From positions 1-35,443 of the forward strand of contig NZ_JAJUJR010000002.1 in the NCBI RefSeq assembly GCF_029265225.1: 35,443 nt of DNA. The letters are read 5' to 3'. The translations under genes and the position numbers were made by a program. This document shows, in pieces, positions 9,559 to 12,015 of the stretch. The notes under the pieces are model-generated. The model was given only the letters and a program-made list of their open reading frames with translations, was not told the DNA's origin and did not search any database. Numbering within the stretch: the first letter of the stretch is position 1; every line of letters starts with the position of its first letter. The stretch comes from Sedimentibacter sp. (GTDB lineage Bacteria; Bacillota; Clostridia; Tissierellales; Sedimentibacteraceae).

Positions 9559-11088
9559 TTAAAACAATATTTCTCCTGCACTTTCCTCGCAAACTTTGAC
9601 CAATGTTCCATCTATTATCAATTCTTCGCACTTGTTTATATCTTCGTAGAGAGGTCTGTCTTCTGTAAGCATAGGAACTGATTTTCTAACAGCTTCATAC
9701 ACTGTCTTTGTTCCTTTGCCAAGACCCTTGTTTCCTCTCATGTCGATTCCCTGGCACGCGCACATGATTTCCATGGCAAGGACTCTTCTTACATTTTCCA
9801 TTATTTCTCTTGACTTTCTGGCTGCTATTGTACCCATTGACACGTGATCTTCCTGATTTGCAGAAGAAGGAATTGAGTCAACAGATGCAGGATGAGAAAG
9901 CACCTTGTTTTCTGAAACCAATGAAGCTGCAGAGTACTGCACTATCATGAAACCTGAATTTATTCCGCCGTGTTCCACAAGGAATGCAGGAAGTCCGCTG
10001 AGAGCAGGATTCACAAGTCTTTCCAGCCTTCTTTCAGAAATGTCGGCCAATTCTGCCAGCGCAATTCCAAGAAAATCAAAGCTTAGGGCCATAGGCTGTC
10101 CATGGAAGTTTCCTCCTGATATTCCTTCCTTTGTTTCCGGGAATATAATTGGGTTATCTGTTACTGAGTTTATTTCAATTTCAACTTTTTCCTTAACGTA
10201 ATTTACTGCATCCTTGCTTGCTCCGTGTACCTGAGGCGTGCATCTTAGAGAATAAGCATCCTGTACTCTTATGTCTCCCTGTCTTGTAGTCATTTTGCTT
10301 TCAGCTAACAAATCAAGCATTATTCTTGCAGTGTCCATCTGACCCTTGTGAGGTCTTACATCATGAACCTTGTGGTCAAGGGCATCAACTATTCCGTGGT
10401 GAGCTTCAAAGCTTAATGCTGCAGCAATGTCTGATATTTTAACAAGATTTAAGGCATCGTACACAGTCAGTGAACCAACTGCAGTCATAACCTGTGTTCC
10501 GTTAATAAGTGCAAGACCTTCCTTTGATGTAAGTTCAATTACCGGAATTCCTGCTTTTTTCATGGCTTCTTCCCCTGTCATTACAACTCCTTCATATTCT
10601 GCAATTCCAAGGCCGATCATAGGAAGAACCATATGTGATAATGGAGCCAGGTCTCCGCTTGAACCAAGGGAACCCTTCTGAGGAACAACCGGATGAACTT
10701 TCTTGTTAAGCATTTCAATCATTGTGAGGATAGTTTCCAGTCTTGCTCCGGAATAACCCTTGGCAAGGTTGTTAATTCTCAGTAAAATTATGCCTCTTAC
10801 TATTTCAGTGTCAAATGGCTTGCCTGCTCCAACTGCATGTGTTATTATGAGATTTTTCTGAAGCAGTCTTGACTCGTCTTTAGAAATTGAAACGTCGCTG
10901 AACTTTCCGAAGCCTGTTGTTATGCCGTAAACAACATCACCGTTATCTACAAAATCATCCACTATTTTTCTTGATGCCAATATTCTATCAACAGCTGACT
11001 TGGACAATTCAACGCTGCAATAATTTCTGCACACCTCTGCAATTTCCTCAAGGGTTAATGTATTGCCTGTTATAATAACCTTTTCCAT
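9559..11088 (-). CDS. hutH: Histidine ammonia-lyase
   Basis: HutH removes ammonia from L-histidine to give urocanate, the first step of histidine degradation, in the cytosol. The 509-residue length is standard. Conserved active-site stretches are visible: YGITTGFG (Tyr54), GSLGSSGDLAPL around the cofactor site, VQDAYSLRCTPQVHG, SGGNFHGQP and SSANQEDHVSMG. The MIO cofactor is built from residues 143-145. These read Ser-Ser-Gly here, where most family members have Ala-Ser-Gly. The start has an AAGGAG ribosome site. Other hut genes are not next to it: the gene stands alone between a leader terminator and its own terminator. The leader suggests histidine-dependent antitermination. Confidence 0.96.
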   Translation of the reverse strand: MEKVIITGNTLTLEEIAEVCRNYCSVELSKSAVDRILASRKIVDDFVDNGDVVYGITTGFGKFSDVSISKDESRLLQKNLIITHAVGAGKPFDTEIVRGIILLRINNLAKGYSGARLETILTMIEMLNKKVHPVVPQKGSLGSSGDLAPLSHMVLPMIGLGIAEYEGVVMTGEEAMKKAGIPVIELTSKEGLALINGTQVMTAVGSLTVYDALNLVKISDIAAALSFEAHHGIVDALDHKVHDVRPHKGQMDTARIMLDLLAESKMTTRQGDIRVQDAYSLRCTPQVHGASKDAVNYVKEKVEIEINSVTDNPIIFPETKEGISGGNFHGQPMALSFDFLGIALAELADISERRLERLVNPALSGLPAFLVEHGGINSGFMIVQYSAASLVSENKVLSHPASVDSIPSSANQEDHVSMGTIAARKSREIMENVRRVLAMEIMCACQGIDMRGNKGLGKGTKTVYEAVRKSVPMLTEDRPLYEDINKCEELIIDGTLVKVCEESAGEILF

Positions 11089-11124
11089 CTTTTTCTCCTT
11101 TTGCCTGATTTACAAAAAATAAAA

Positions 11125-11161
11125 AGCAAATTTCAGCATACTAAGTATGCTAAAATTTGCC
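11125..11161 (-). terminator. Leader terminator (attenuator) of hutH
   Basis: On the minus strand a hairpin of two 17-base arms with one mismatch and a 1-base centre (GCAAATTTTAGCATACT / AGTATGCTGAAATTTGC) runs into TTTTTATTTTTT. It lies downstream of the hutH promoter and 36 bp before the hutH start codon, so hutH transcripts must pass through it. It is therefore an attenuator rather than the end of the preceding gene's transcript alone. Confidence 0.85.
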
Positions 11162-11163
11162 TC

Positions 11164-11180
11164 CTGCTATCTATTGTCTA
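11164..11180 (-). promoter_or_regulatory. HutP-like RNA box (UAG-N4-UAG-N4-CAG) in the hutH leader
   Basis: The hutH leader RNA reads UAG-ACAA-UAG-AUAG-CAG, which is three NAG triplets with exact 4-base spacers. Bacillus subtilis HutP, with histidine and Mg2+, binds NAG triplets with this spacing and opens a terminator ahead of hutH. The box here lies between promoter and terminator. No hutP gene is in the window, so the protein partner is inferred. Confidence 0.65.
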
Positions 11181-11200
11181 TAGGCTTATTTATTACAATA

Positions 11201-11229
11201 ATTATATTACAAAATATAATTATTGTCAA
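11201..11229 (-). promoter_or_regulatory. Consensus sigma-A promoter of hutH
   Basis: On the minus strand TTGACA and TATAAT stand exactly 17 bp apart, a full match to consensus. The -35 begins one base after the stop codon of the preceding lipoprotein gene. The predicted start near 11194 gives a leader of about 105 bases. Confidence 0.92.
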
Positions 11230-12015
11230 TTACTCAGACTTTTTTACAATTAATTTGGCATCCACGCTGGCTGGGACACTTCCGTCGGTTTTTTCAGGAT
11301 ACACGGTAATCTGGTCCCCTTCCTTAAGAGTGGAGTGTGCAAAATTAGTAATTGTTTCAGAATTCACCTTTATGTCATATTCCCTGTTGTCGTCAGAAAC
11401 TCCGTATACTCTGAGCATTCCGTTTGTGTCTCTTGAAATTTCCCTTACTGTTGCATTTATCTTTGAAGTCTCGTCATAAAAAGACAGAAGCTCATTTCCG
11501 TTGTTATCTTCAACATAATCCGCTATGAACTGGTCCCCTTCTTTCAAATTGAAACCTTCCGGATATTTTAACTTCAAGTCTCCCATTTCAGTTATTGCTG
11601 TAATGAAATCTTCTCCAACTTCTCCCACTGTTGCTGTAACTCGTTTGATATCAACACCGTCCTGAGTCTTTCTTTGAGTATAGTCGTAATACTGATCCGA
11701 TACAGCATCGAATGTTCCTCCCTCAAGCTGGTTTATTCCCACGTACTCACCGAGAAAAAAATTGCTTGACCTTGCCTGGTCAACCTTGTAAGTATTGACA
11801 TTTTCTCCTTCCTGAACATGAATACCATCCTGGTCAATTTTAATAATCTTTCCCTGAGCATTATACCTTCCCGGAATATTCTCGTCAGAGCTGCTTTCGT
11901 TTCCGGATTTTAAATTTTCCTGATACTTCTCCTTTTGTTCTGATCCAGCACAACCTGCCAATGAAAAAGCAAGAGCTACTATTATAAATATGATAATTTT
12001 TTTATTATTTTTCAC
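11230..12015 (-). CDS. Lipoprotein of unknown function (beta-rich)
   Basis: The 261-residue product has a signal peptide and lipobox ending LAGC, so it should be anchored to the outer face of the membrane. The remainder is rich in short beta-strand-like segments of the type GKIIKIDQDGIHV, VTATVGEVGEDFITAI, INATVREISRDTNGMLRVYG and KEGDQ(I/F). These suggest two or three OB/SH3-like barrels. I do not recognise a named family. The start is GTG: the overlapping ATG one base earlier would read ATG-TGA and stop at once, and GGAGG stands 6 bases before the GTG. It lies upstream of hutH, but the hutH promoter begins right after its stop, so no common function follows. It diverges from the Lrp-type gene. 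Confidence 0.85.
   Translation of the reverse strand: MKNNKKIIIFIIVALAFSLAGCAGSEQKEKYQENLKSGNESSSDENIPGRYNAQGKIIKIDQDGIHVQEGENVNTYKVDQARSSNFFLGEYVGINQLEGGTFDAVSDQYYDYTQRKTQDGVDIKRVTATVGEVGEDFITAITEMGDLKLKYPEGFNLKEGDQFIADYVEDNNGNELLSFYDETSKINATVREISRDTNGMLRVYGVSDDNREYDIKVNSETITNFAHSTLKEGDQITVYPEKTDGSVPASVDAKLIVKKSE

Follow-up and report, generated by a model that had tools for sequence, protein, structure and literature searches.

The hutH leader and its elements

We analyzed a 35,443-nucleotide (nt) stretch of Sedimentibacter sp. DNA (contig NZ_JAJUJR010000002.1, positions 1 to 35,443; here called the window) in which a short leader separates a promoter from hutH, the gene for histidine ammonia-lyase. 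All of the elements described lie on the minus strand, and coordinates are window positions. The hutH gene (9559 to 11088, start at 11088) encodes a protein of 509 amino acids that matched PF00221 and scored 676 bits against the TIGR01225 hutH equivalog model (cut-off, 539). On the minus strand, the order of elements is promoter, GCCTA, three NAG triplets, terminator, Shine-Dalgarno sequence, and hutH. The core promoter (11201 to 11229) consists of TTGACA (11229 to 11224), a 17-nt spacer, and TATAAT (11206 to 11201), and it matched the consensus at 12 of 12 positions. The triplets were read directly as UAG (11180 to 11178), UAG (11173 to 11171), and CAG (11166 to 11164), separated by the spacers ACAA and AUAG; this segment (11164 to 11180), which is conserved among the leaders described below, is the predicted HutP-type site. 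The following intrinsic terminator hairpin with its T-tract (11112 to 11164) has arms of 17 nt that are 94% complementary, with 1 nt between them. When G-U pairs are counted, the terminator comprises 20 pairs from 11164 to 11122, followed by the T-tract. The ribosome binding site AAAGGAG (11095 to 11101) was likewise read directly.

The perfect promoter, the triplets with exact 4-base spacing, and the 17-bp hairpin with a T-tract had been described in a first-pass annotation of this DNA, and all were recovered here. That annotation overlooked four bases that precede the triplets and pair with the terminator base. GCCU (11182 to 11185) is complementary to AGGC (11159 to 11162), and the two would form the 5' and 3' strands of a putative antiterminator stem, designated P1, with the triplets in its loop. 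Since AGGC is also the 5' base of the terminator stem, P1 and the terminator are mutually exclusive pairings.

Conservation of the leader and its linkage to HutP

In the window, the bare pattern NAG-N4-NAG-N4-NAG was observed 19 times against 15.4 expected. The spacing alone is thus at chance level, and its significance rests on the placement between promoter and terminator and on conservation. HutH homologues were present in 51 of 61 related genomes. Besides the window's own leader, 20 hutH leaders from Sedimentibacter and its relatives carried the block GCCUAUAG-NNNN-NAG-NNNN-NAG-GAGGC with a covarying terminator, and the form at these 20 loci was GCCTAWAGAYAWNAGAYAWNAGGRGGC, then the terminator. 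Compensatory changes were seen at 11 of the 17 consensus pairs of the terminator alignment, and close relatives showed similar -35 and -10 hexamers at an equal distance just upstream of the triplets. A covariance model of 74 positions was trained on 21 hutH leaders including that of the window, where it scored 87.9 bits (E = 4.8e-18), a value that is not independent because the window leader belongs to the training set. Independent matches outside the training set were obtained in G006, G069, G077, G081, and G086 and in a second copy in G026. Most genomes gave one strong match, nearly always before hutH, and no second strong match to the model was found in the window's own genome.

The HutP protein was also compared across relatives, which include S. 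saalensis DSM 13558 (G019) and S. acidaminivorans (G024). HutP scored above the family cut-off in 17 of 24 other genomes of the genus, the nearest relatives included. In S. saalensis, whose HutH is 97% identical to that of the window, hutP is the last gene of hutU-ftcD-hutI-fchA-hutP and lies about 42 kb from hutH. Other arrangements were hutH-hutU-ftcD-hutI-fchA-hutP in G009 and hutP-leader-hutH in six genomes of a neighboring family (G028, G045, G058, G069, G077, and G081). Sedimentibacter HutP was homologous to the B. subtilis HutP structures 1wmq (E = 4.5e-37) and 1vea. The HutP of the relatives keeps H73, H77, H138, R88, T56, E81, and E137, with E90 replaced by Q, in a B. subtilis numbering that was taken from a printed alignment extended by a few terminal residues. 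We take the kept residues to have roles in metal, histidine, and RNA binding.

Leader and HutP occurred together. Among 100 relatives, 25 had both, 1 had the leader only, 1 had HutP only, and 73 had neither (Fisher's exact test, 2.8e-21, not corrected for kinship). The 25 include G081, where the model scored only 53.8 bits and the leader appeared intact by eye. The genome with the leader only is that of the window itself, and in the genome with HutP only (G004), the contig starts inside hutH. In two Sedimentibacter genomes lacking HutP, the hairpin was kept and the triplets had decayed, to CAAG-AAAA-TGG in G012 and to AAG-AAAA-TTTG in G023; a third genome, G018 (94% complete), had hutH and neither leader nor HutP. 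Because G012 and G023 are 82% and 84% complete, the absence of HutP from them is likely but not certain.

The genes behind the leaders were also examined. The fetched loci contained 84 leader candidates, of which 59 were followed by hutH, 4 by hutP, 3 by hutI, and 3 by hutU; some loci were shared between searches, so that not all candidates represent distinct genomes, and a few of the unassigned ones are chance matches. Other genes following a leader encoded amino acid permeases, an arginase-family hydrolase that is likely formimidoylglutamase, and an antiporter-family transporter. The second leader of G026 precedes a Na+/H+-antiporter-family gene, and in G011, hutH is followed by a gene of that transporter family.

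The B. subtilis hut leader shares with the window the three NAG triplets, the 4-nt spacing, and their position directly before the terminator that precedes hutH, and its HutP shares the family and the metal-binding histidines. The window leader belongs to this HutP leader kind. It very probably controls hutH by HutP-dependent transcription antitermination. The first-pass annotation had proposed this reading for a solitary hutH in a clostridial setting with the regulator encoded elsewhere. The proposal is supported by the leader conservation, the covarying terminator, and the co-occurrence with HutP; triplets, spacing, terminator, and promoter position are conserved within Sedimentibacter and beyond, with decay where HutP is missing. 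The setting also agrees, in that hutP ends a separate hut operon in the nearest Sedimentibacter relatives.

Stem P1 and the proposed mechanism

Complementarity between the four bases before the first triplet and the 5' base of the terminator was also seen in Peptoclostridium, Cytobacillus, Priestia, and Niallia plasmid records. For a test of P1 pairing, leaders were selected by triplets and terminator only, blind to the P1 bases. This selection gave 64 distinct cores with perfect triplets, and 60 remained after 4 had been removed by hand (2 out of register and 2 apparently unrelated to a hut leader). In these 60 leaders, P1 was paired in 96.7% of cells, compared with 82.8% for shuffles and no more than about 62% for slid versions. 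Double-sided changes were found in 55 cells against 13.9 in shuffles, a number reached by 0 of 500 shuffles, although change counts are inflated by sequence relatedness. Covariation at three of the four pairs extended widely through the Firmicutes, with the pair types GCCU:AGGC, ACCU:AGGU, GCCC:GGGC, ACCC:GGGU, ACUC:GAGU, and GCUC:GAGC, and with GUCC:GGAC in Cytobacillus. The same changes arose in separate lineages; ACCC:GGGU, for example, was found both in Sporomusa and in one genome of the Bacillales. A further Bacillales set gave 29 readable leaders, every one of which paired at four of four positions; the 3' strand was constrained by that scan. The B. subtilis-group leaders read AGCCCAUAG-AUCU-UAG-ACGA-UAG-GGGGC, in genomes whose HutP is 92 to 93% identical to that of B. 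subtilis, and this sequence contains the P1 complement, so that P1 is present there too. One Bacillales clade (L204, L205, L209, and L211 to L214) had UGA in place of the middle NAG and kept the outer two triplets and P1.

From these data, the following mechanism is proposed. Transcription would start some 10 nt before GCCUA and, unless prevented, end at the hairpin that precedes hutH. In the nascent RNA, GCCU would pair with AGGC to give the short stem P1, whose 19-nt loop carries the three triplets. When histidine and Mg2+ are available, a HutP hexamer would bind the triplets and hold P1 closed; with P1 locked, the terminator would lose the base next to its U-tract, and polymerase would read into hutH. 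HutP would act in trans, from the last gene of a distant hutU-ftcD-hutI-fchA-hutP operon. The binding of HutP, its dependence on histidine and Mg2+, and the read-through are inferred. In crystal structures of HutP-RNA complexes, three triplets surround the three-fold axis of the hexamer; such a path would draw the loop ends together, as P1 requires. Protein-stabilized antiterminators that have bases in common with the terminator, as proposed for P1, are also known from LicT/SacY-type systems, which differ in protein family and RNA site; the hut leader has no phosphorelay. In stepwise folding of the growing window RNA, P1 was favored up to the point at which the final bases of the terminator 3' arm were added; from then on, the terminator was preferred.

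Several points weigh against this interpretation. P1 has four pairs and about -2 kcal/mol by itself, far weaker than the terminator; therefore, it can matter only cotranscriptionally or with protein bound. The third triplet is the weakest, being CAG in the window and UGG in G007. HutP was not found in the window's own draft genome, an assembly that is 81.4% complete and comprises 490 contigs, and its presence in the species is deduced from synteny across a contig gap. The search for a HutP homologue suggested by the first-pass annotation thus failed in the draft genome itself and succeeded in its nearest relatives. When the 11-kb hutP region of S. saalensis was aligned to the window's genome, only contigs C431 and C8 matched, and both end at the borders of the fchA-hutP-LysR stretch, leaving a gap of about 2.5 kb. 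Because the syntenic stretch falls between contig ends, the missing HutP is best explained as an assembly gap. The reading that HutP is absent and the proposal thereby refuted was rejected, since hutP, fchA, and the LysR gene all fall within this one gap.

The alternative with the most remaining weight follows the proposal for B. subtilis: HutP would grip the triplets together with the neighboring stem and so open the terminator directly, and P1 would not be a structure in its own right. The triplets do adjoin the terminator base, and P1 is weak by itself. However, plain protein contact would not require covariation at three of four P1 pairs across Firmicutes. A review describes two triplet clusters in the B. 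subtilis leader, the second about 20 nt downstream (PMC7430163). Reading of the hairpins revealed no second correctly spaced three-triplet cluster in the window or in the B. subtilis-group leaders read, and a second HutP site inside the terminator was rejected on this ground. As the second cluster was not seen in the B. subtilis group either, it seems not to define the family at the sequence level. We consider direct opening rather unlikely. Our tentative preference is for a general picture in which HutP everywhere acts as a clamp on a small hairpin, with P1 closing a 19-nt triplet loop and sharing terminator bases. Across Firmicutes, the element would then be a portable switch used by HutP in trans for many genes (hutH, hutU, hutI, hutP, permeases, and the arginase-family hydrolase) and not a device that melts the terminator of a single operon.

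The other alternatives concern the HutP assignment itself. The hairpin might only terminate the upstream gene, with constitutive hutH expression arising by read-through or at a different start, and a same-strand gene does end just before the promoter, at 11230. However, that gene is separated from the hairpin by a consensus promoter, and relatives differ in the sequence upstream of the promoter but keep the promoter, the triplets, and the hairpin; this explanation is very improbable. We give still less credence to the triplets being a chance match in an RNA that senses histidine itself or through a T-box or other riboswitch. The chance-level frequency of the bare spacing fits this idea, but it conflicts with the strict conservation and the linkage to HutP, and a T-box would need a longer leader. 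No Rfam family reached its cut-off for the leader, the low-scoring list being chance matches; as no family covers the element, it is likely unannotated in genomes. Finally, binding by a TRAP-like protein, TRAP being another binder of NAG repeats (PMC4347634), can practically be dismissed, since TRAP requires 9 to 11 repeats against the three in the window leader, a search of 41 relatives that detected the B. subtilis control gave no member of its family (PF02081), the gene is hutH, and HutP co-occurs.

Compared with known systems, the probable HutP-controlled leader of the window differs in gene arrangement. In Bacillus, hutP lies directly upstream of hutH in one operon, whereas in the window's species hutH stands alone and hutP lies elsewhere, judging by the nearest relatives. 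On plasmid EAL2_808p of Peptoclostridium acidaminophilum, which has a named clostridial HutP, the leader ACCCAUAG-CUAU-UAG-ACAU-UAG-AGGGC with a hairpin is shared, but it stands in one contiguous operon with hutP first (hutP-leader-hutH-hutU-ftcD-hutI-fchA-hutD). A family-wide P1 stem and a trans-acting regulon in anaerobes appear to be less known. No text on P1 pairing was found in the literature searched, which did not cover the primary HutP papers. The title of Oda et al. 2004 speaks of "hut antiterminator RNA"; an antiterminator has therefore already been proposed, P1 may be that antiterminator, and priority for P1 is not claimed. The system would extend textbook Bacillus antitermination to amino-acid-fermenting anaerobes with the regulator in trans, and the competing stem P1 offers a concrete, mutable prediction of how HutP prevents termination.

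Neighboring features and HutP-family relatives

The gene upstream of the promoter (11230 to 12015, same strand, 261 amino acids) matched no Pfam or NCBIfam family, and hutH of several other Sedimentibacter genomes seems to have a comparable reading frame before it. At the hutH core promoter, positions 11195 to 11226 form a perfect 14-bp inverted repeat; it was rejected as an operator because, by eye, it was not kept in the two nearest relatives. In the hutU operon promoter of relatives (L039, about 10860 to 10900; also L040, L053, and L057), which lacks a HutP leader, the direct repeat AGACG-N6-CGACG is conserved around the -35 region. This repeat suggests a separate activator, perhaps the product of the LysR gene beside hutP.

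In other families of the same order, we found HutP-family proteins that lack the HALYH motif (L099:7842-8441 and L035:1471-2124; PF09021, about 155 bits). Each of their genes is followed directly by one for an ABC transporter substrate-binding protein (PF04392), and a TAG/NAG-rich hairpin region separates the two. This arrangement may be a sister antitermination system that responds to a different ligand. HutP-family proteins of a third kind (116 bits; L046:2512-2958, also in G045, G058, and G086) are encoded away from the hut genes in genomes that also have a true HutP. An Armatimonadetes bin contained a HutP relative (L149:6621) with triplets before a hairpin; the P1 complement is missing there, and chance or contamination may account for the match. 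In Syntrophomonadaceae-like genomes, two to three HutP-type leaders are clustered before hut genes (L113:7509 and 7596; L119:5456, 5954, and 6062; L120:2244 and 2343).
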